From the NCBI GenBank assembly GCA_903863885.1, contig CAIPEB010000011.1, forward strand, positions 1 to 64,000: a stretch of DNA of 64,000 bases, given 5' to 3'. The DNA comes from an uncultured Planctomycetaceae bacterium (GTDB lineage: Bacteria; Planctomycetota; Planctomycetia; Pirellulales; Pirellulaceae). Position 1 is the stretch's first letter. Each line of letters begins with the position of its first letter. Positions 8,729 through 50,700 of this stretch are shown piece by piece. The translations under genes and the position numbers were made by a program. The notes beneath the pieces were generated by a model. That model was given only the letters and a program-made list of their open reading frames with translations. It ran no database searches and was not told the origin of the DNA.

Positions 8729-8892
8729 AATAATCGCAAATGACTACGCCGCGAAGACTTCCGTGCAATCACGGGCCATATCTTAATTGCCTTCGCATTG
8801 ATCTACAATCGGTGGTGCGGCGTTTCCGATACGATACTGACTGGCAAAGGGCGGGAATCGCTGTACCACTGGTCGTTGCGTCACGTGGGCGC

Positions 8893-8898
8893 TATAAT
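8893..8898 (+). promoter_or_regulatory. candidate -10 element for guaA
   Basis: A perfect TATAAT lies 64 bases upstream of the guaA ATG. The -35 position at 17-bp spacing is TGGTCG (poor), so this is a candidate only. The predicted transcript would begin near 8905 and run directly into the hairpin at 8919. Confidence 0.5.
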
Positions 8899-8918
8899 CG
8901 GCTCGCCATCCAGGCGTT

Positions 8919-8942
8919 CCCCGCTCGTGTGCGGGTTTTTTT
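8919..8942 (+). terminator. intrinsic-terminator-like hairpin in the guaA leader
   Basis: CCCGC (8920-8924), a TCGTGT loop, GCGGG (8931-8935) and a run of seven T residues (8936-8942) form a short intrinsic terminator. It lies between the TATAAT and the guaA start at 8962. It may attenuate guaA transcription. The stem is only 5 bp, so efficiency may be low. Confidence 0.55.
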
Positions 8943-8961
8943 GTTGGTGGTGACAGGCACT

Positions 8962-10545
8962 ATGACTGCTGAACAAACGGCCTTCCGTCCCGCGGGTCAT
9001 GTTTCGGACGAACGCATTCTGGTGCTGGATTTCGGTTCGCAGTACGCCCAACTGATTGCTCGGCGCGTTCGCGAACAGAATGTCTACTGCGAGATTGTCC
9101 GGCACAGCATCACGGCGGAGCAGGTCCGTCGTCACAATCCCCGTGGCCTGATTCTTTCCGGCGGGCCCTCCAGCGTCTACGAGGCCGGTTCGCCGAAGTG
9201 CGACCCGAAACTCTTTGAGATGGGCTTGCCCGTGCTCGGGATCTGCTACGGGATGCAGCTGGCCTGCTATTCGCTGGGCGGGCAGGTCGAGCACACGCCG
9301 GCTCGCGAGTACGGGCGTGCCCGCTGTGAGGTCTCGCACGAATCGGAACTATTCGCCGGACTGCCGACGGACATCGACGTGTGGATGAGTCATGGGGATC
9401 AGGTATCCCAGGTCCATGGCGATTTTGTGCCGTTGGCCCGCACCAATACGTGTCCGATTGCGGCTGTGCGGCACTCTCAACTGCCCGTCTACGGACTGCA
9501 GTTCCACCCGGAAGTGACCCACACGCCGCTGGGCGGGAAGATTCTGAACAACTTCCTGAGGCTGGTGTGCGGCTGTACGGGAACTTGGCATCTCGGCGAT
9601 TTCGCGCGGGAGACGGTGGAGGATGTGCGCAAGAGAGTCGGAGAGCGCGGACGCGTGATCTGCGGTCTGTCGGGGGGCGTCGATTCGGCCGTCACGGCCG
9701 CGCTGCTGTATCAGGCGATCGGCCCGCGTTTGTCGTGCATCCTCGTGGATAATGGCCTTCTGCGCAAGGACGAGAAGGAAGCGATTATTTCCGAATTCAC
9801 CAGTCACTTTCGCACGGACCTGCACGTCGTCGAGGCCGAATCGCTTTTCCTGTCCCGCCTCGATGGGATCGTGGATCCCCAGGAGAAACGCCGCCGGATC
9901 GGCCATGCGTTTATCGAGTGTTTCACGCAGGAAGCCAATCGCATCGAAGGGGCCGGCTTTCTTGCTCAGGGCACCCTGTATCCGGACGTGATCGAAAGCG
10001 GCGCCGCTCCGGACGGGCCTGCCGCCACGATCAAGTTGCACCACAACGTCGGCGGATTGCCCGACAAGCTCGGCTTTGAATTGATCGAGCCGCTTCGGGA
10101 TCTTTTTAAAGACGAGGTGCGGAAGTTGGGGGTGGAGTTGGGGCTGCCTGAAGACATTGTCTGGCGGCATCCCTTCCCCGGCCCCGGATTGGCTGTGCGG
10201 TGCCTCGGTCCTGTGAACCGTCACCGGCTGGATGTGCTCCGCGAGGCCGATGCGATTTCGGTGAGCGAGATCAAGGCAGCCGGCCTCTATCGACAGACGG
10301 CCCAGGCCTTCGCAGTGCTGCTGCCGGTATCCAGCGTCGGCGTCATGGGGGATGCCCGCACGTACGAGAACACCATCGTTCTCCGGTGCGTCAATACGGA
10401 TGACTTCATGACGGCGGATTGGACGCGGCTTCCCTATGATCTCCTGGCGCGGATCTCCACGCGGGTCATCAACGAGGTCAAGGGCGTCAATCGCGTCTGC
10501 TATGACATCAGCACGAAGCCGCCCGCGACGATTGAATGGGAATAG
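8962..10545 (+). CDS. guaA: GMP synthase (glutamine-hydrolysing)
   Basis: The 527-residue product converts XMP to GMP with ATP and glutamine. Domains in order are a class I glutamine amidotransferase ([16 protein letters not shown], catalytic Cys in GICYGMQ, His/Glu in [11 protein letters not shown]), an ATP pyrophosphatase with the SGGVDSAV P-loop, and a C-terminal dimerisation domain ending [12 protein letters not shown] 8962 was chosen because the GATase fold begins about 20 residues later; the longer frame from 8740 would add 74 unrelated residues. guaB, the preceding pathway step, is at 20825. Confidence 0.97.
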
Positions 10546-10656
10546 CGCATTCGCCAGTTCGCAGCGTCCACGGCCTCTGCACGGAACAGACGGTGCGATC
10601 GCGGCACGAAGGGCACGCGGTCTTTTCAACTCCGCACGGCAGTGAGTGATTTCTGC

Positions 10657-12330
10657 ATGAATCGCCAATACATCTATACGATCGAGAATCTCACGAAGAA
10701 GCACGGGCAGCGCGAGGTTCTCAAGAACATCTGGCTGGCTTTTTATCCGGGCGCGAAAATCGGCGTGCTGGGTCGCAACGGCGCGGGAAAGAGTTCGCTC
10801 CTGCGCATCATGGCAGGCGTCGACCGTGAATTCGACGGCGAAGCGAGGTTGACCAGCGGCTTTCGCGCGGGGTACCTGTCGCAGGAACCGCAGCTGGACC
10901 CCGACAAAAACGTCTGGGGCAACGTCGAGCAGGCCGTGGCGCCGCGACGCGCTATGCTGGATCGGTATCATGCGATCAGCGCCCAGTTGAGCGAGCCGAT
11001 GGACGACAACGCCATGCAGAAGCTCTGCGACGAGATGGCGAGACTCCAGGATCAGATCGAGGCGACGCATACCTGGGAACTTGACCGCGAAATCGAGATC
11101 GCGTTCGACGTGATGAATCTGCCGGACCGCGATGCCGAGGTGTCGACGCTGTCGGGGGGCGAGCGGCGACGCGTTGCTCTCTGCAAACTGCTGCTGGAGC
11201 GTCCGGACCTGTTGCTGCTCGACGAGCCGACGAACCACTTGGACGCCGAGGCCGTGGCCTGGCTGGAGCGGCACCTGGCGGAATATGCGGGAACCGTGGT
11301 CGCGGTAACGCACGACCGGTACTTTCTGGACAACGTGGCTCAGTGGATTCTCGAACTGGACCGCGGCCGTGGAATTCCCTGGGAGGGGAACTACTCGTCG
11401 TGGCTCGAGCAGAAACGGGACCGATTGGAACGTGAGGAAAAGCAGTCCGTCGCCCGCCGCAAAACGCTCGACCGAGAACTCGACTGGATCCGCATGGCGC
11501 CCCGCGCCAGGCAGGCAAAGAGCAAGGCCCGCATCAAGGCGTACGAACAGATGGCCTCGGAGCGGTTCGAGGAGCGGTTGGACGAGTTCGAGATTCAGAT
11601 TCCGCCCGGCAAACATCTCGGCGACCTGGTAGTCGAGGCGAGCAATCTCACCAAAGGCTTCGGGGACCGGGTGCTGATCGACTCGCTGAATTTCCGACTG
11701 CCCGCGGGAGGGATCGTCGGAGTGATCGGGCCCAACGGCGCCGGCAAGACGACGCTCTTCCGCATGCTGATCGGCCAGGAAACTCCCGATGCCGGATCGC
11801 TCCGGGTCGGTTCCTCCGTGGAGATGGGCTACGTCGATCAGAATCGCGACGCGCTGATTCCCGAGAAGACTGTATACGAAGAGATCTCGGGAGGACACGA
11901 CACGCTGCTGATGGGCGGGCGAAGCGTCAACTCGCGAGCCTATGTATCCCGCTTCAACTTTCGCGGGCCGGACCAGGAGAAGAAAGTCGGCGATCTGTCA
12001 GGCGGGGAACGCAACCGAGTTCATCTGGCCAAACTCCTGCGTCGCGGCTCGAACCTGCTGCTGCTCGACGAACCGACCAACGACCTCGATGTCGACACGC
12101 TGCGTGCGCTGGAGGAAGCCATACTCAACTACGCCGGGTGCGTGGTTGTGATCAGCCACGATCGCTGGTTCCTGGATCGCATTGCCACGCACATTCTCGC
12201 CTTCGAGGGCGAAGGCTATGTGCACTGGTGTGAAGGGAACTTCCAGTCCTACGAGCAGCAGCGTCGCGAGCGGCTCGGAATCGATGACAGCGCGCCGCAG
12301 AGGTTCCGCTACAAGCGACTGTCCCGCTGA
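10657..12330 (+). CDS. ettA: energy-dependent translational throttle protein EttA (ABC-F)
   Basis: The 557-residue soluble ABC-F protein binds the ribosomal E site and gates translation by energy state. It has two ATPase cassettes: Walker [10 protein letters not shown] and GPNGAGKTT, signatures LSGGERRR and LSGGERNR, Walker [13 protein letters not shown] and [13 protein letters not shown] linker between them contains the conserved [11 protein letters not shown]. Length and motifs match EttA rather than Uup or YheS. The start is ATG 10657 ([13 protein letters not shown]); the upstream in-frame ATG adds five residues. Confidence 0.95.
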
Positions 12331-12374
12331 TCCGGCGCGATTGGTCGACTCGAACCCGAGAGACCCGCCTCGGC

Positions 12375-12401
12375 TTGACCCGGCGCAGGGTTTGCGATAA
12401 T
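12375..12401 (+). promoter_or_regulatory. candidate promoter of the selenoprotein gene
   Basis: TTGACC (12375-12380) and GATAAT (12396-12401) are separated by 15 bases, with TG at 12393-12394 forming an extended -10. The spacing is short for sigma70. It lies about 130 bases upstream of the GTG start at 12536. Confidence 0.45.
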
Positions 12402-12535
12402 CAAGAGACAGGAAGGTCGTTCCGCCGGCCATGCACGCAGTTCCCCGCCGAACGAGTCGGCCGGCTTCGCGAGGTTCGGTATGCGAAATGAACCAGCGCG
12501 AGGCGTGAATCCGTGCGAGGTAAAGGAGCAACGCC

Positions 12536-12769
12536 GTGAACGTGTGTATTCGTTACTGCTCTGCCTGAGGGTATGAGCCCAAAGCCGTCAGTTTGGCGGC
12601 CGCTTTGCTGAACCAGTTCAAGCAGAAGATCAAGGGCCTGACTCTGCAGCCTTCCCAGGGTGGGTGTTTCGAGGTCAGCTTCGACACCGAACTGGTCTAC
12701 TCGAAACTCAAGACCGGCCAGTTCCCCGACGAAAAAGCCATCGTCAGCGAACTGAAGTCCCGCTTGTGA
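12536..12769 (+). CDS. SelW-like (SelT/SelW/SelH, Rdx family) selenoprotein, UGA = Sec at 12566-12568
   Basis: Reading through the TGA at 12566 gives a 77-residue protein with a thioredoxin-like Rdx fold. A beta strand VCIRYC leads into the redox motif C-S-A-U (Cys8, Sec11), then GYEPKA. The second half carries the family's other signature: GGCFEVSF, then LVYSKLKTGQFPDE. This matches the SelW pattern, with Sec where many homologues have Cys. The start is GTG 12536 with AAAGGAG seven bases upstream. Family length is usually 75-100, so it looks full length. Rdx proteins are thought to be thiol oxidoreductases; substrates are mostly unknown. A bacterial SECIS-like hairpin follows the UGA, and selC, selB and selA are nearby. 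The gene is on its own, convergent with efpL. Confidence 0.92.
12584..12600 (+). promoter_or_regulatory. bacterial SECIS element
   Basis: GCCGTC (12584-12589) pairs with GGCGGC (12595-12600), including one G-U pair, closing a five-base AGUUU loop whose second base is G followed by U. Flanking AAA (12581-12583) can pair with TTT (12604-12606) across a three-base bulge. Twenty-one bases separate the UGA from the apical loop. This fits the known bacterial SECIS constraints: loop 16-37 bases after the UGA and a G in the first two loop positions. It should recruit SelB. Confidence 0.8.
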
Positions 12770-12805
12770 CGCCAGTCTGCGTGCAAGTCGAGTCCGCTTG
12801 AAGCA

Positions 12806-12853
12806 GGGCCTGTTGGAGACCCGGGCCTGCTTGAGACCGGGGCCTGCTGCAGG
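12806..12853. repeat. three imperfect 17-base tandem repeats
   Basis: GGGCCTG units begin at 12806, 12823 and 12840, giving an exact 17-base period with diverging ends. They fill the gap between the convergent selenoprotein and efpL genes. They may contribute to a terminator, but no T-tract is evident. Confidence 0.6.
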
Positions 12854-12879
12854 AGTTTCTTGTTCAGGCACCGCCGGCT

Positions 12880-13443
12880 TCAGGCGCGGGACAGGAATTC
12901 CCCGGTTCTCGTATCGATCTTCACGCGTTCACCCTGGCTGATGTACTCGGGCACCTGGACGACCAGACCTGTCTGGAGAGTGGCCGGTTTGTTGCGGCCC
13001 GTGGCGGAATTGCCGCGCACGCCCGGTTCGCATTCAGTGACGGTCAGTTCGACAGCGGTCGGCAGTTGAATGCCGACGCACTCGTCGTTGTAGATCATCG
13101 CCAGCATGCCCTCGAGGTCCTCGGTAATGTAGTAGCGGGCGTCTCCCAGGTGCTCGAGGCTGACCGCCCACTCGTTGTAGTCGGTCTGATCCAGGAAGTA
13201 CATCGAGGTGGGGTCCGCGTACATGAACTTGACCGATCTGCGTCCGAAGTCGGCTTGGTCCATGCTCTCTCCGCTGCGGAGCGTGATGTCGGTCTTTTGT
13301 TTCGTCACGAGATTCCGGCCGCGGAACTTGTAGATCGTGGCTGCTCCCCGAGCCGACGGAGACTGCACATTAACGGACTCGATCAGAATGGGAGCGCCCT
13401 GGTAGTTCAGCACGGCTCCCGGCTTGATTTCTTTGGCTTGCAT
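12880..13443 (-). CDS. efpL: elongation factor P-like protein EfpL (YeiP)
   Basis: The 187-residue product has three beta-barrel domains like EF-P, which helps ribosomes through difficult peptide bonds. Two stretches mark it as the YeiP/EfpL branch: NVQSPSARGAATIYK at the domain I tip and NKPATLQTGLVVQVPEY in domain III. At the tip, Arg32 replaces the Lys that is post-translationally modified in canonical EF-P, so no EpmA-type modification is expected. It is convergent with the selenoprotein gene. Whether a canonical efp exists elsewhere cannot be seen. Confidence 0.9.
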   Translation of the reverse strand: MQAKEIKPGAVLNYQGAPILIESVNVQSPSARGAATIYKFRGRNLVTKQKTDITLRSGESMDQADFGRRSVKFMYADPTSMYFLDQTDYNEWAVSLEHLGDARYYITEDLEGMLAMIYNDECVGIQLPTAVELTVTECEPGVRGNSATGRNKPATLQTGLVVQVPEYISQGERVKIDTRTGEFLSRA

Positions 13444-13508
13444 GGGATCTCGTTCCTAGGGCTCGACGTGCCGGTCGCCAGGAAGCACGTTGAGTGAAAC
13501 ATTGCCGA

Positions 13509-13991
13509 TTACATGAACGATCCGGACTGAGGATCAATGGCGACCCCCGAACAGGCGCGGGATAACCGGTCTAAAACGATCAGCAAGGCGGCCGGATCCA
13601 GGAATTCGTCCTCTTCTTCTCCATCGGCCATTCGCTGCTCGAAATGGAAGATATCGAATCGCGCGTCGCATTGCGACAAGTGTTTCAGTTTCTCGCGATC
13701 GTCACCCGTCATGGAACTCCGGGAGACTTCCTGGGTCAGTTCGGCGACCTGTTCCGTGACCTCATCGCCCGAAACGTAGGAAATATCCATGGCTGCGAAA
13801 TCGTCAGGGGACGTGAGCGTCAGCGAATCCAGATGTCCCTTCCGGTCGGCTCGCACGTCCGTCACGTCGAACCGGTTGTCGTCCCCCACGATGGAACGCA
13901 CCGCGTCGTCAGCACTCGGCCGATCCCGTTCGCGAAACAGCACGAAGTAGGTTTCACGCCACTGGTACCTATCGTCTCCAAAGAGCGACAT
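13509..13991 (-). CDS. hypothetical acidic protein in the proC operon
   Basis: The 160-residue soluble protein starts at ATG 13991 with AAAGGTGAT upstream. It begins SLFGDDRYQWRETYFVLF, contains a central acidic beta-rich part, and a QVAELTQEV ... DIFHFEQR segment near residue 120. No catalytic motif or membrane segment is seen. Its start is four bases beyond the stop of the preceding small gene, so the two are probably translationally coupled. Function unknown. Confidence 0.75.
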   Translation of the reverse strand: MSLFGDDRYQWRETYFVLFRERDRPSADDAVRSIVGDDNRFDVTDVRADRKGHLDSLTLTSPDDFAAMDISYVSGDEVTEQVAELTQEVSRSSMTGDDREKLKHLSQCDARFDIFHFEQRMADGEEEDEFLDPAALLIVLDRLSRACSGVAIDPQSGSFM

Positions 13992-13995
13992 GCGA

Positions 13996-14229
13996 TCACC
14001 TTTGTTCCTGATCCGGGTTCTTGCCTGTCTGCCAGAATTCAATTGCTGCGAGAAGTCGGTCTCGTTCCTCGCGATTCGCCCAGACGGACTCCTCGACTTC
14101 CAGTCGGATCTCGTATTGGCCTTCGCGGACACACTCGTCATCGCCGCAGAAATGCGGCAGGTCCGAGATCCAGAGGACGCGATAAAGCGGCACGTGCTTG
14201 TCGTCGATCTTGCAGAATATCGATCCCAC
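13996..14229 (-). CDS. hypothetical 77-residue protein in the proC operon
   Basis: The start is GTG 14229, nine bases after the proC stop, with a GAGGT site five bases upstream; longer frames run back into proC. The product begins GSIFCKIDDKHVPLYRVLWI, has two Cys in DLPHFCGDDECV, and ends in a Glu/Arg-rich helix. The closely spaced Cys could bind a metal or form a disulfide, but no family is recognised. Its tight packing between proC and the next gene argues that it is real. Confidence 0.7.
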   Translation of the reverse strand: MGSIFCKIDDKHVPLYRVLWISDLPHFCGDDECVREGQYEIRLEVEESVWANREERDRLLAAIEFWQTGKNPDQEQR

Positions 14230-14237
14230 GTCTGACC

Positions 14238-15050
14238 TCACCCGTGCACGTTTCCGAGTTCTGCGGACCGGCGCGTGGCTGCCTCCACTGCGTCGATAAC
14301 CGCCGAACGCAGGCCGCATCGTTCGATGACTTGCAGGCCGGCAATGGTCGTTCCGGCCGGGCTGGTGACGCGGTCCCGCAGCACGGCCGTATGTTCGCCG
14401 GTCGACAATACCATCTGGGCGGCGCCAAGCACGGTCTGGGCCGCCAGCGCCGTTGCCACATCTCGCGGCAGGCCGACGCGAACGCCCCCGTCGCTCAACG
14501 CTTCGATGAAAGTATAGACATAGGCGGGACCCGACCCCGACAGCCCCGTTACCGCGTCCAGATGTTTCTCCTCCAGCTTCCAGGCTGAACCGACTGTGCG
14601 AAGCAGGATCTCAACCTGTCTGGAATCCTCCGCCGAGGCGCCGGGCCCAACTGCAAAGGCCGAAGCGCCGAAGCCGATCAGGCACGGAGTGTTCGGCATG
14701 ACTCGGATGACGCGTGTATGCTCGAACGACTCGGCCAGCACGCGAATCGGCACTCCAGCCAGCAACGATACGAGCAGTTTGTCCGGGCTGCCGATCGCTC
14801 CCAGATCCTCGGCCACGTTCCGGAGACTCTGCGGTTTTATTGCCAGCACGATGATGTCGGACTGGTCGACCACCGACCGATTGTCGGCGAGGAGTCGGCT
14901 CGCCGGGACGTCGTTCTGGAACTGCTCGGCTGCCGCAGGCACCGGATCGTGCCCGACAATTTCCGTAACGCCAGCTGACTTCGCGATCCCCTGAGCGAGG
15001 GCTCTCGCCATCTGGCCCGTCCCGATAAAACCGATTCGCTGGTGCGACAT
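14238..15050 (-). CDS. proC: pyrroline-5-carboxylate reductase
   Basis: The 271-residue product reduces pyrroline-5-carboxylate to proline with NAD(P)H. It has the N-terminal Rossmann motif IGFIGTGQMARAL, the IKPQ loop, RVMPNTPCLIGFGA, and the C-terminal dimerisation signature LSGSGPAYVYTFIEAL ... VTSPAGTTIAGL. The start is set at ATG 15050 (SHQRIGFIG), eight codons inside the longer frame. It is the first gene of an apparent operon with two small unknown proteins. Confidence 0.96.
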   Translation of the reverse strand: MSHQRIGFIGTGQMARALAQGIAKSAGVTEIVGHDPVPAAAEQFQNDVPASRLLADNRSVVDQSDIIVLAIKPQSLRNVAEDLGAIGSPDKLLVSLLAGVPIRVLAESFEHTRVIRVMPNTPCLIGFGASAFAVGPGASAEDSRQVEILLRTVGSAWKLEEKHLDAVTGLSGSGPAYVYTFIEALSDGGVRVGLPRDVATALAAQTVLGAAQMVLSTGEHTAVLRDRVTSPAGTTIAGLQVIERCGLRSAVIDAVEAATRRSAELGNVHG

Positions 15051-15336
15051 ATGGCTTGTGACCAAGGGAAACAAACGCGTTGCTTAAAGGTACTTATGCT
15101 ACGGCAAACAGGGGAGCGACACAACGCGGCCGCAGCTGCCGTCAGAGGCGGCGGACAGTGCTGTCAGGTCAGATTCCAGGCGTTGGGGGACCGGGGCGTT
15201 TGAGTTGCCGCCTGCGAAATTGTCCGACAATGAACTGGACCCGCTTTTGGGTTTCTGGGACACTCGCCCACCCTTCGGAGTCGAGCATTCGTATGGAAAG
15301 CGAACGCCGACTTCGCCCTACCTATGGAGGTGGATC

Positions 15337-15813
15337 ATGCAGGTTGTACTGCGGCGCGGGATGCCCGCGGGACTGGCGGTCGTAGTTGCTTTGTTGCTGG
15401 CGGCGCCCTCACTGGCCGCGGACTCGAGTTCGGGTTCGTGGTGGAATCCGCTCAACATCGGTGGAAAGTCGACGAGCAGCAGCTCGAAAAGCCCGGCGTC
15501 GCGCGACAGCGGGACGAAGACTTCACTGACCAGCGGTGCCCGCTCCAAGAAATCGAAAGAGCCGGGTACTTGGGATAAGGTTACCACCGGGACCAAGAAC
15601 TTCTTCAACAGTCTGAATCCGTGGGCTGACGATTCCAAGGATTCGGCAAGTTCGAAAGGATCCGGGGCTTCACGCAAGACCAACGTCTCCGCGACGAAGC
15701 CTCGCGGAAAGAGCAACGAGAAGGGCGTCTTTTCGTCGTGGATGAGTCCCGAACCCGAGGAAGAGAAGATCAATTCGGTGAACGACTTCCTCAAGCTTCC
15801 GAAGCCGCAGTGA
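15337..15813 (+). CDS. secreted Ser/Lys-rich protein, unknown function
   Basis: The 158-residue product starts at ATG 15337, six bases after a GGAGG site. An N-terminal signal peptide ends near SLAADSS. The mature part is low-complexity, rich in Ser, Lys and Gly, with short repeated W-containing segments (SWWNPLNIGG, FFNSLNPWADD, FSSWMSPEPEEE) and an EEKINSVNDFLKLPKP tail. It is probably intrinsically disordered in the cell envelope. No family is recognised. Confidence 0.75.
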   Translation: MQVVLRRGMPAGLAVVVALLLAAPSLAADSSSGSWWNPLNIGGKSTSSSSKSPASRDSGTKTSLTSGARSKKSKEPGTWDKVTTGTKNFFNSLNPWADDSKDSASSKGSGASRKTNVSATKPRGKSNEKGVFSSWMSPEPEEEKINSVNDFLKLPKPQ

Positions 15814-15978
15814 TATAGTTTCCGCACAGTGTGCTCGGTCGCTGCGCCGGTCGGTCTGCCGGCGGCGCATCGACTCGCCGGCACGCTGTATTCAGGCTCG
15901 CAGTGTCGGATTCAGCCGACTGAGTCAGCAGATGCGGCATCATGTGCCGGAACGTCCGGACGAGTAGAATAGTCCGTT

Positions 15979-17928
15979 ATGACAACGGACTTGATACTCG
16001 GAACCGCTGGGCACATCGATCACGGCAAAACCGCGCTCGTCCGCGCTCTCACGGGGGTCGACACGGATCGGCTTCCCGAGGAGAAACGCCGCGGCATCAC
16101 GATCGAGCTTGGTTTTGCCGAACTGCTGGTGGGCGATTTCCGGCTGGGAATCGTCGACGTTCCCGGGCACGAGCGGTTCGTGCGCAACATGCTCGCCGGC
16201 GCGACGGGCATGGATCTGGCCATGCTCGTGGTCGCTGCCGACGACTCGGTGAAACCCCAGACCCGCGAACACTTCGAGATCCTCCGCCTCCTCGACTTGC
16301 GGGCCGGTGTCATTGTGATCACGAAATGTGATCTTGTGGAACCCGGCTGGCTGAGTCTCGTCGAGGACGAAGTCCGCGAACTCGTTTCCGGCTCCTTCCT
16401 CAGTCAATCGCCGCTCGTTCGCACGAGCACGGTGACCGGACAGGGGCTGGATACTCTGAGGGACGAGTTGGCCAAGGCGGCTTCGCGCGCCGCTGCCAGG
16501 CGAATGTCGCTGGCCGGCCGCTCGCCGTTCCGCATGGCAATTGATCGCATGTTCACGATCGCCGGACACGGAACGGTTGTGACCGGCAGTGTGAGCAGCG
16601 GCGGGGCCTCCGTCGGCGACGAGTTGTCCATCGAGCCGGGGGGGAGGCGAGTGCGGGTGCGAGGGCTGCACAATCACGACCGGGCGGTCAACGATGTGCA
16701 CCGGGGGCAGCGGGCCGCGATCAACCTGGCCGGAGTTCATCACGATGATCTGATGCGCGGCCAGGAACTGTGTTCACCGGGCCACCTGGTGCCCAGTCGC
16801 GTTCTGACCGCAAGCCTGGCGATGCTGAACTCGATGAGCCGGCCGTGCCGCGATCGGACCCGCGTCCGGCTGCATGTCGGCACGGCGGAATTGACGGCCA
16901 CTCTGAGACTGCTGGGTCGCGATCGCCTGCAGGCCGGGGAAAACGGTCTGGCTCAGTTCTTCCTCAGCCGGCCAGCAGTCACGGTGTGGGGGCAGCCGTT
17001 TGTCGTGCGGGCGGAGTCGCCGTCGGTGACGATTGGCGGCGGAATCGTCCTCGATCCGAATGCCGAGCGCATCCGTTTGGCTGACGAGGAGACTCTGTCC
17101 TGGGTGGAACGACTGCGTTCAACCGATGAATCCGTCCGCGCCTCGGCGGCTCTGTACTTCGCGGGCCTGCGAGATTGGGTTCCGCTCGACCTGTCTCGCA
17201 CAGCAGGCATTGAAGAACCGGACCGCGTGGCTTCGGTCTTAAGGCAACAAGGCGAACTGCGGGAAATCGTCGTATCTCCGACGCGCACCTTTCGAGTTCA
17301 CCAGCGTGCATTCGAGCGGCTTTGCCAGCGATTGGAGGCTGCGCTGGGGCGATTGCACGAACGCCACCCGCTGCGGACCACGCACGACCGAATTGCCTTG
17401 TTTCAAGGCCTGAGGTACGCAGGAGAGGACGCCGTGCTGGCAGCCGCACTGCAGTTCCTGAAAAGCCAGGGGCGGGTAGTGCTGTCGGACAGAGGGGTCG
17501 CTCTGGTAGGTCACGGGCCGCGACTTTCTCAGAATGAACGGAAGTCGCTCCAGCAACTGATCGAGGTTTTCCGCAACCACGGAATCTCCACGCCGAGCGT
17601 GGAGGAGTGCCAGCGGTTGATTCCTCGAAGTCAGGCGTCGCTGCCTCAACTGCTGGCGCTGGCTGTCGAAAATCAGGATCTGGTGGAAATCGCACAAGGC
17701 TATTACCTGCATGCCGAATCCTTGCGAGCCGTGCGCGAACAATTGACCCGGCAGCTGGCTGGCAGCGAGGGGCTGACGCTGAGCCAGATTCGAGAGATGC
17801 TGAATACGACTCGAAAGTACGCTGTCCCGCTGTGTGAGTATTTCGACCGGATCGGATTCACGGAGCGCCGAGGTGATTTGCGGATCCTGAATGCCCTTTT
17901 CCGTCCTGAAGCCGGCCCTGTATCGTGA
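15979..17928 (+). CDS. selB: selenocysteine-specific elongation factor SelB
   Basis: The 649-residue product delivers Sec-tRNA to UGA codons marked by a SECIS hairpin. The N-terminal EF-Tu-like GTPase has GHIDHGKT (residues 11-18), a GITIELGFA switch I, DVPGHERF and TKCD. Two beta-barrel domains follow, then domain IV with winged helices in the last 250 residues, including a [16 protein letters not shown] wing and [13 protein letters not shown]. Length is normal. No clear Shine-Dalgarno precedes ATG 15979, and a TAGAAT hexamer sits nine bases upstream. It lies 40 bases before selA in one operon. Confidence 0.97.
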
Positions 17929-17968
17929 GACCACTCGGTACCGGCCCGCGCCACGCAAAGGTATTTCC

Positions 17969-19411
17969 ATGAACAACCCCGTACTGCGATCGATACCGTC
18001 CGTCAGTGAACTGCTGGAAAGCCCTCCGCTGCGGCGACTGGTTGACCGTGTCAGCCACAACGTCGTTGTCGGCGGCGTGCGAACGTTTCTGGACAACCTG
18101 CGCCGCGATGTGCAGTCTGCCGCCGCCGAGATGAAGATGCCGGCCGTGGGCGAACTCGCGGAGAAAATTGCGGATTGGATTGTCCACGAGGAGCGGCCCA
18201 CGCTCCGGCCGGTAATCAATGCGACCGGGATCATATTGCACACGGGTCTCGGCCGTGCGCCTCTTGCGGCCGACGCGGTCCAAGCTGTTGCGGAAGTGGC
18301 CTCCGGCTACGCGACTCTGGAAGTTGATCCGACGACCGGAGAGCGGTCGCAGCGCACGCTCGGCGTTGCCAGGCTGCTGACCGAGTTGACGCGGGCCGAA
18401 TCGGCCACCGTCGTGAACAACAATGCGGCCGCGACGCTGCTGACGCTCACGGCGGTTGCCGCAGGACGAGAGGTTATCGTTTCGCGGGGCCAGTTGATCG
18501 AAATTGGCGGAAGCTACCGTTTGCCCGATGTCATGACTGCCAGCGGCGCCAGGCTGCGCGAAGTGGGGACTACCAATAAGACTCGACTCTCCGACTACGA
18601 AGCAGCCATCAATTCCGAAACGGCTGCGATCCTGCGAGTGCACACGAGCAACTTCCGCGTCGTGGGGTTCACCGAAGAAGTGCCCATCGACGAACTCGTT
18701 CGGCTCGGCCGCCGGCGGCAACTGCCGGTGATCGATGATGTGGGGTCGGGGGCTTTGATCAGCCTCGCGGCTTACGGGATTCACGACGAACCGGTGGTTT
18801 CCGAGAGCGTTCGCTGCGGCGCGGACCTTGTCCTGTTCAGCGGCGACAAGCTTCTCGGCGGGCCCCAGTGCGGCGTCATCGTGGGCAGCCAGTCGATGGT
18901 GCAGAAAATCACCTCCCACCCGATGATGAGAGCAATGCGAGTCGACAAGTGCACGCTCGCCGCTCTGGCCGCAACGCTTCGCCTCTATCGGGATCCCCAG
19001 TCACTCGAACGGTGTGTCCCGATCTTCCAACTGCTGGCCACACCCATGGCCAACCTCAAAAACCGCGTGGAGCGACTTGCTCCGCAGATTGCCCTGTGCC
19101 CGGCCATCGCCTCGGCCGATCCGGTCGAAACGACGAGTTTCCTCGGCGGAGGTGCTGTGCCCGCCCAGGAAATCGGCACATGGGGCATCGCACTGGCTCC
19201 GAAAGCAGGGAGCGTTGCGGATCTCTCGAACCGGCTGAGGACCTGCGAACCGGCGATTTTCAGCCGAGTGCAGAAGGACCGGGTATTGCTTGACCTGCGG
19301 ACCGTGTTTCCCGCCCAGGACATTGCGCTGGTTCAAGCGATCGAGACGCTCGGGGACAAGCTGCAGCCTGCCGCCACGCCACCGGCAAAAACCGAGACGA
19401 AAGAGTCCTGA
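17969..19411 (+). CDS. selA: L-seryl-tRNA(Sec) selenium transferase
   Basis: The 480-residue PLP enzyme converts seryl-tRNA-Sec to selenocysteinyl-tRNA-Sec using selenophosphate. It has the N-terminal tRNA-binding helices (IPSVSELLESPPLRRLVD), INATGIILHTGLGRAPL, VNNNAAATLL, the GTTNKTR loop, and the PLP lysine near residue 294 in FSGDKLLGGPQCG. ATG 17969 has an AAAGGT site six bases upstream. The order selB-selA is the reverse of E. coli selAB. The selenophosphate donor gene selD is not in the window. Confidence 0.97.
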   Translation: MNNPVLRSIPSVSELLESPPLRRLVDRVSHNVVVGGVRTFLDNLRRDVQSAAAEMKMPAVGELAEKIADWIVHEERPTLRPVINATGIILHTGLGRAPLAADAVQAVAEVASGYATLEVDPTTGERSQRTLGVARLLTELTRAESATVVNNNAAATLLTLTAVAAGREVIVSRGQLIEIGGSYRLPDVMTASGARLREVGTTNKTRLSDYEAAINSETAAILRVHTSNFRVVGFTEEVPIDELVRLGRRRQLPVIDDVGSGALISLAAYGIHDEPVVSESVRCGADLVLFSGDKLLGGPQCGVIVGSQSMVQKITSHPMMRAMRVDKCTLAALAATLRLYRDPQSLERCVPIFQLLATPMANLKNRVERLAPQIALCPAIASADPVETTSFLGGGAVPAQEIGTWGIALAPKAGSVADLSNRLRTCEPAIFSRVQKDRVLLDLRTVFPAQDIALVQAIETLGDKLQPAATPPAKTETKES

Positions 19412-47715: not shown

Positions 47716-50700
47716 TTAACGGGTCGTGAACGGAACCGGTAGGCCGGCCGTCTGCGGGCCTTCACGTCCGGAACTGGGGAACAGCTGCTGAAACCGCTCA
47801 CTCAGCTCCGGCACAAATTCGCGACGCAATTCGGGGTTGTCCAGCGTTCCAACCACCTCAATCACCATCAGGCGGCGTCCCGCCTCTTTCAAGATCGGCC
47901 GCAGCAGTGCGGCATAATAATCGTCCCGTCCCACGGTCGTGCCAAAGGTGAGGTGGATCTGCCGGTCGAGGCTCATCTCGCCCCGTCCATCGAGACTGAT
48001 TGCGTCACCGTCAAAATCGATGCGATCAAAATAGATGCGATCGGCTTCGATGCGGAAATCGACGTCGCTGGACGTGAACGCCGTCAGGTCGGGGGATTTG
48101 ATGGTCAGCAGTTTCAGCATCGCGACCATGACGGGCAGTTCGTAAAGATCGGCTTCACGCAGCAGGACGCGGCCCACTCCCCGCAGCGTGTGCACGCCCG
48201 CGCTGCTGCCGTTGAGACGGACGTTGGCAAACGTCCTTCCCGAGACGTGGCGTTTGCGGTCCGTCGCCTCCTCGCTGATGGCCGCCAGATCGCCCTCCGC
48301 CAGGCCGATCTGCAGATCGAACAGCGACGGTTCACCCAGTTGAACTTCGCCGCTGCCGGAGAGTGTCCCGCCCCAGGCATTGGCTGTCACGGGCCTCGGC
48401 GTGCCGCGCCGCCGCGGTTCCGGAATACGTTCACCGAACCTCAGCAGCGAATCTTCCATCTGGACCGGGCCGCTGATCCGCGTCAGCTGAACGCCTTTGC
48501 ACATCAGCGAATCCAGATTCAATTCAGCGGTGCCGACTGCGGCGTTGCCGTTGAATTCGCCTTCACTGAGCAATCCGCCCCGGACGTGTTCAAATCGCGC
48601 GCCGCAGTCGATGCCGCCGTCTTCGAGGTCGATGTTCAACTTCCAGGCCGCCGCGGGCGGGGCCGGATTTCTGCTATTGCCCGACACGGCCATCGAGCCG
48701 CTCAGCGAAATCAGTCCGGATACGTTCAGTCGGCTGAGAGCGTGCCCGAGTCGCGGAGGCAATGCCATGACGAACTCCCGCGAGGCGTCGAATCGGTCGA
48801 TGTTCAGCGGCGACATCTGCAGTTGCCACAGGCCTTCGGGCGATGTGTCGATCCGCCCGCTGAATTCGAGTTCGGTGTCGCCGTGAACCGCGCGAATTTC
48901 CTTCAATTCGACAACGCCGTTGTTGAAGTGGACGCTGCCCGCCACGTCGTCCCACGGATAGGGAAACCACGTCGGCTTGACGCTGATGCTGCGGCCTTCG
49001 ACGTTCTGGTCCGGCGGACGCTTTACGGCCAGCACATCGACGGCAAGGTCCTCGGCCCGCGATGCGTAGCGAACCGCAACTTTCAAGTCATCGATACTGC
49101 CGCGCGGGCAGAGGTTGTTCCAGATCTGCTGGGCCTGCGGCTTCAACGCATTTTTCAATTCGTCTTCCAGCGGCACGTCCATCGCATGGAAGTCCAGCGC
49201 CAGTTCCGTGCCGCCCGCGGCCACGGGTTCCCATCGCCCGCTGCACGTCACCCATCCGCTGTCGTTGTATCCCTCGAGATCGCGGAAGGTCCAGCGATCG
49301 TCGGTCATGCTGAGCGTGCCGCGGATGCGGTAAAGCGGATAACGGAATTTTTCGTAATTGATGGAGCAGTCGGTCAGACCGATCTCCAGACGCTTGTGGA
49401 AACCTGCAGGATCGTTCGCCGTTCGCTCGTATCGCCCCCAGACGCTCACGAAACCGTGCGGCTCAAGGGAACGAACGACCGACTGGGCAGGTCCCTGCAG
49501 CGAGGCCATAAGCTGCTCATCCAGGGGGACCGGGTCTCTTACGAGGAATTCAAGCCAGCCTGCGCCGCCCTGGCTTGCTGCGGAAAAAGCACCCTGGAGA
49601 CGCAGCGGCCTGCCGTTGACGGATGCCCACAAGTCCTGCAGTTCCAGGCTGCCATTATGATACCGCACGCGCCCGCGGATCTTGTCGACCGGATAGGGGA
49701 AACGAGCGTACGTCATCGAAACGTCGACGCAATCGATCGTGACATCCTGCGCCCACTGCCGGCCGTCGAAGGAGATATCCGCCGTTGCGTTCACCACACC
49801 CCGCGGCGAAAGCTGCTGCCATCCGTCGCGCCAGTTCGCCGGAAGGCTGCCGGCCAAAGCGTTGCTGAGCATCAGCCGCTGCGCCACGGCCCTGAATTGC
49901 AGCGGTCCGCCGGACCGCATTCCGTTCCACTGGCCCGACACTTCGATGCGAGTCTCGCCCGCCTGAGCATGAGCCCGCTCGACATGCAGTTCGTCGTTGC
50001 TGGTCGAAAATGAAACCTCGACGTCCGTCAGCGGTTGCGGAAGACGCGCATCCTCGATGCGACCCCGGCTCGTGCCGGAACAGGCAAAACGCGTCTGAGC
50101 TGCGCCGGCTTCCGCACTCTGGCAGCGAAAGCTCAGTTGCGTCTGCCCGCGGTACGACGCGAGCGGGCCGAGCCGCGACGCCATGTCCTCGGGAAGATAG
50201 GCCAGCGATTCCGCGGATGTCTCAAGACCCTGGACAGTGCCCTGCGCGGTCCAGCAATGACTGTTCAGGTCGAATTGGCCCTCAAGCTCCGCGGAACTGA
50301 ACAGATTGCCCCGCAGTTGGCCCTGAAACCGGCGCGCCCCGGCGGCCGATTCGGGCAACTGGCCGCCGCTTTCGTCAAGGACCGGCACGATGGTCATATT
50401 GATGTTGTCGAGACGCAGGCTGGATGCCGCCTCGCGCCGCGACTGCACCTCGACGGTCGCATTCTCGATCGTCACGTCCGGACTGCCCGACCCGAAACGC
50501 GGCAGTGGCACCAGGTTCAGAGTATTCCACCGGCCGTCCCGCTCGCGACGGGCCTTGATGTGCGGACGCCGGACAATGACCTGCCGGCAGTCGGCTTGCC
50601 CGCCCACGAGATCGCCCAGCTCTGTGCTGCAGCGGACCAGCATCTCGTCGACGTAAGCAAGGCTGTCCGTCGAGACGCCTTGGCCCGCGGCGTCCGGTTC

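Follow-up and report, generated by a model that had tools for sequence, protein, structure and literature searches.

Bacterial SECIS elements (bSECIS) are described by a compact set of rules, namely an apical loop of 3–9 nt, a stem of 4–16 bp, a distance of 16–37 nt from the UGA and an energy of −7.5 kcal/mol or lower, together with a loop rule that asks for a G within the first two positions, followed by G or U (PMC13188914). The fdhF SECIS of E. coli depends on a bulged U17 and on G23, with U24 also belonging to its fixed letters (PMC8659212). Knowledge of SelW-like selenoproteins with bacterial SECIS elements goes back to the Sargasso Sea survey (PMC1088965), and the GOS survey covers them as well (PMC2398784); the SelW-like family is reported to be among the most abundant selenoprotein families of marine bacteria (PMC1088965, PMC2398784). 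For planctomycetes, the main text of a 2016 study describes full Sec-insertion gene sets in P1, P2, G. obscuriglobus and I. pallida (PMC4807772); it names fdhA and fmdB for strains P1 and P2, and the term “SelW” does not occur in that main text. A literature search of incomplete coverage likewise found no report of SelW in Planctomycetes.

Here, we analyzed a window, by which we mean the whole stretch of 64,000 nt from an uncultured Planctomycetaceae bacterium, in which a small selW-like gene on the forward strand (12536–12769) contains an in-frame UGA (12566–12568). We are nearly certain that the hairpin behind this UGA (12584–12600) acts as the gene's bacterial SECIS, so that the SelW-like product is a selenoprotein with Sec at residue 11. 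The gene starts with GTG, shortly downstream of a putative ribosome-binding-site-like AGGAG (12524–12528, forward strand), and encodes 77 residues; read with Sec, its product begins MNVCIRYCSAUGYEPKAVSLAAALLNQF, with the CxxU motif CSAU at residues 8–11. At the aligned position, 122 further distinct homologues also have UGA, and some have Cys. In profile searches, the product matched the Rdx family (PF10262, E 2.5e-22, 79.3 bits versus a cut-off of 22.6) and the SelT/SelW/SelH family (TIGR02174, 68.5 bits versus a cut-off of 34.2), while NCBIfam NF041051 (SelTWH_Campy) stayed below its curated cut-off (75.1 bits versus 88). That this small SelW-type CxxU protein is a selenoprotein is well supported, and established knowledge of such proteins suggests a thiol-redox role. 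Standard annotation would miss the gene or end it at the UGA.

The hairpin, delimited by folding and by comparison with homologues, consists of a 5′ arm GCCGUC (12584–12589), an apical loop AGUUU (12590–12594) and a 3′ arm GGCGGC (12595–12600), all on the forward strand. A gap of 15 bases (12569–12583) separates the UGA from the 6-bp stem, which contains one U-G pair, and the AGUUU loop starts 21 nt after the UGA. The A and U at the ends of this loop may pair: RNAfold closes A12590–U12594 as a seventh pair, which lengthens the stem to 7 bp and reduces the loop to a GUU triloop beginning 22 nt after the UGA. The hairpin has an energy of −9.3 kcal/mol alone and −10.3 kcal/mol with short flanks. 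A sequence-only reading of this DNA had already proposed a SECIS here, and both the sequence and RNAfold bear out its 6-bp stem with one G-U pair 15 bases after the UGA, its AGUUU apical loop at 21 bases, its location inside an open reading frame (12536–12769) and its agreement with the rules for the loop G (here at loop position 2) and for the 16–37 nt spacing (here 21 or 22 nt). The additional AAA/UUU pairing that it had suggested did not hold, as this pairing appears in no minimum-energy fold and the UUU is missing from homologues such as L036. That earlier reading was thus right on almost every point, and its interpretation of the hairpin as a bacterial SECIS in selenoprotein coding sequence is supported.

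Taken on its own, the fold of this single sequence is weakly unusual. Shuffle z-scores of the hairpin region ranged from 0 to −2.0, varying with the segment folded (both longer and shorter segments were used), and a rule-fitting hairpin of at least the same stability was found in 143 of 2000 (7%) synonymous recodings of the selW-like gene and after 59 of the 1766 (3%) TGA triplets in the window. At gathering thresholds, an Rfam search of the window returned tRNA-Sec alone, with no SECIS family attaining its threshold at the hairpin. The sequence-only reading had named a fold no better than shuffled sequence as a ground for abandoning the element; the z-scores set it apart from shuffled sequence weakly, and this is a poor test, since the element is real by comparison. 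Because the single-sequence fold could not decide between chance and function, we relied on homologues, and the proof is comparative instead.

Homologues were gathered from a scan of genome contigs and from 392 genomes of the phylum. Besides loci from Planctomycetota, these sources supplied some whose records are titled Verrucomicrobia, Acidobacteria, Gemmatimonadetes and Gammaproteobacteria. Because the contig scan picks out sequences by short exact peptides (e.g., YEPKAVSL), residues within those peptides are over-uniform, and the structure tests described below hold the residues fixed. After removal of duplicates, the sample comprised 123 homologues with the active-site UGA and 12 with Cys, Gly or Ala at that site. 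There are no gaps in frame across the hairpin region, and positions are directly comparable; we number them from the U of the UGA as position 1. Among the sampled genomes of the same family, only one besides that of the window carries the selW-like gene (L112), and seven are without it.

It could be argued that the hairpin serves no function in itself and simply results from encoding a conserved peptide, YEPKAVSLAA, where the genome is GC-rich; indeed, the residues alone give 4.25 of the 6 pairs on average in synonymous recodings, and 7% of the recodings of the gene fold as stably. However, 85.4% of the 123 Sec homologues combine pairs 21–33, 22–32, 23–31 and 24–30 with the loop G26, versus 8.3% (maximum 15.4%) in 1000 synonymous recodings using the codon usage of the remaining parts of the homologue genes, and versus 49.2% (maximum 60.2%) when codons for the same residue are shuffled within columns. 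The loop G26 (G12591 in the window) is invariant (123/123 versus 44% expected), and the next letter is U27 (U12592) in 115 of 123 sequences. Pair 21–33, which joins two third-codon positions, is formed in 116 of the 123 homologues, compared with 70.6 expected if the positions were independent, and it covaries, occurring as C-G (79), G-C (22), U-A (7), G-U (5), U-G (2) and A-U (1). The two outermost pairs are weaker, being kept in 81 and 97 of the 123 sequences. In the nearest relative with Sec, L112 from the same family, the hairpin reads GCGGUC AGUUU GACCGC where the window has GCCGUC AGUUU GGCGGC, so that a C-G pair has become G-C and a U-G pair has become U-A, with both pairs kept.

Codon choice in the loop also speaks against a by-product of coding: the loop serine codon is AGU in 88 and AGC in 7 homologues, while elsewhere in the same genes AGU is disfavoured (22 AGU, 83 AGC), a sign that the RNA letter U27 is itself under selection. 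The hairpin is, furthermore, far rarer in the non-Sec homologues (3 of 12), those with Cys and Gly being mostly without it. In a set of 44 diverse homologues that excludes the window, both-sided changes occur at four pairs, and the covariation score of 0.381 compares with 0.176 in shuffles, none of 500 reaching as high; the homologues are kin, and such shuffle counts are not to be read as probabilities, yet slid registers, which share the same kinship, all fail (≤0.135). Given no prior structure, RNAalifold predicts the five top pairs. The idea of a coding by-product is refuted because synonymous positions covary, and we consider it extremely improbable; in the comparative tests, conservation of a predicted SECIS above the coding constraint far exceeds chance. 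The sequence-only reading had asked whether the stem and the loop G persist in orthologues when codons change, and the 123 Sec homologues and the covariation among the 44 give a clearly positive answer.

The same reading had called for a check with a covariance model, and this proved favourable: a model built without the window sequence places the window element first both in the window (41.4 bits, E 6e-12) and in the 11-Mb genome (E 1.1e-9). Further matches of the model in the genome score 28.4 bits or less; the four inspected (L152–L155) have no UGA at the right spacing. The second match of the model in the window (49892–49927, reverse strand, 23.2 bits) is a GC-rich hairpin that is probably there by chance.

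Most members of the family have their loop 21–22 nt after the UGA, but several homologues depart from the pattern seen in the window. In six of them (L008, L021, L022, L028, L124 and L135), AGUUU at 21 nt gives way to a different hairpin, whose CGUGA loop is found at 17 nt; these six have AGC, not AGU, as the serine codon of the loop, and their G-U is located 4 nt upstream, with the peptide nearly unchanged. We put at about even the chance that the SECIS has shifted its position in the mRNA within the selW-like family, with SelB tolerating two registers and needing no bulged U17. In nine other homologues, a Thr in place of Val coincides with a single A-C mismatch at 22–32. Two SelW-like genes (L050:3001-3231 and L101:3001-3216) carry a UGA at both motif positions (UxxU), where recent reviews give CxxU alone for the family. 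In these genes, 30 nt separate the loop from the first UGA, and one SECIS could therefore serve both UGAs. L050 differs from L046 by six bases, all of which fall near the 5′ end, with silent changes among them, and this makes a single sequencing error unlikely as the source of the UxxU motif. At a Gemmataceae locus (L083:50-280), Gly stands in place of Sec, the AGUUU loop is kept and the outer three pairs are lost, which looks like a recent loss of Sec. More distant copies with Gly for Sec (L105–L110) occur in genomes that also have a copy with UGA.

The window and its source genome also encode the machinery for Sec insertion. The tRNA-Sec gene selC, with anticodon UCA, lies on the reverse strand at 2775–2871 (Rfam RF01852, 69.9 bits; ARAGORN). 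On the forward strand follow selB (15979–17928), encoding the Sec-specific elongation factor (TIGR00475, 346.4 bits, above the cut-off) with a C-terminal winged-helix domain (PF09107), and selA (17891–19411), encoding selenocysteine synthase (TIGR00474, 548 bits, above the cut-off; PF03841, E 3.3e-135). As listed, the selA reading frame overlaps selB by 38 bp, and the selA profile match begins at residue 32. Within 8740–19411 of the window, the genes are arranged in the order guaA, ABC-F, selW, efp, a hypothetical gene, proC and selB, and the order from guaA to selB is kept whole or in part in related planctomycete loci (e.g., L043, L054, L060, L063 and L075). The fourth gene, selD, is found on another contig of the same genome (L033:1500-2532, contig C664) and has an in-frame UGA in an SCAGU context, followed after 11 nt by a CCCC-GUU-GGGG hairpin. 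The product of selD is thus itself a predicted selenoprotein, and its candidate hairpin, spaced at 15 nt, falls marginally short of the 16–37 nt of the bSECIS rule. Two unrelated genes, selW-like and selD, may share the GUU triloop.

With a gene of known family, a conserved UGA, a conserved and covarying hairpin and selA, selB, selC and selD all present, events would follow the established bacterial Sec-insertion pathway, from which we infer SelB binding and actual Sec incorporation. The hairpin would form in the mRNA, 15 nt beyond the UGA that starts at 12566, and SelB, together with GTP and Sec-tRNA-Sec, would bind it via the C-terminal winged helix, contacting the G-U of the loop. Sec-tRNA-Sec would then be delivered when the ribosome reaches the UGA, so that residue 11 of the CxxU redox protein becomes Sec.

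A stem shortly 3′ of a stop codon can in general stimulate readthrough, and the stem studied here is indeed placed shortly downstream of its UGA; one might thus suppose that the UGA is suppressed as Trp or Cys and that the hairpin merely slows the ribosome. We give this next to no credence, given that the tRNA-Sec with its UCA anticodon is a dedicated one, that the encoded SelB has a SECIS-binding winged helix, and that the loop G-U is conserved beyond the needs of a pausing stem. The UGA could also be read as a genuine stop, or as a mutation that disables the gene, with a separate small reading frame starting at TTG 12593. This notion does reproduce what standard ORF calling yields (a 58-residue ORF, 12593–12769), but it is vanishingly unlikely in view of a single domain profile that spans residues 3–74 across the UGA, of 123 distinct sequences whose active site carries a UGA rather than a random stop, and of the presence of all four sel genes. 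A pseudogene was rejected along with it, on the grounds of the profile across the UGA and the conservation of the UGA.

Returning to the bacterial SECIS that we favour, we compared it with the described elements. Set against the bSECIS consensus, the window element (loop GUU or AGUUU, stem of 6–7 bp, spacing of 21–22 nt, −9.3 kcal/mol) shows no difference in any of the listed constraints. Like the E. coli fdhF SECIS, it is a hairpin in coding sequence with a short apical loop containing G-U. The fdhF loop reads GGUCU, and these same letters recur among the homologues, of which 26 of 123 have GGU as the loop codon, mostly as GGUCU. Unlike in fdhF, where the G-U is at 23–24, the G-U of the window family is at 26–27, 3 nt further from the UGA. 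The window stem, whose fold is continuous in RNAfold, shows no evident counterpart of the bulged U17, and position 20, the equivalent of U17 six positions below the loop G, is C in 123 of 123 sequences. In planctomycetes and relatives, the alignment of 123 sequences thus indicates that selection holds the loop G and U and the loop-proximal pairs, and that it holds neither the bulged U17 nor the outer pairs; the letters under selection should be useful for SECIS prediction outside proteobacteria.

The SECIS in the selW-like gene is a textbook element, a new member of a known family with a known mechanism. Its protein resembles the SelW-like proteins of the Sargasso Sea and GOS surveys in being a small member of the Rdx family with a CxxU motif and a SECIS directly behind the UGA, but whereas those cases are environmental fragments, the gene described here comes from a planctomycete and shares a conserved block with selB.
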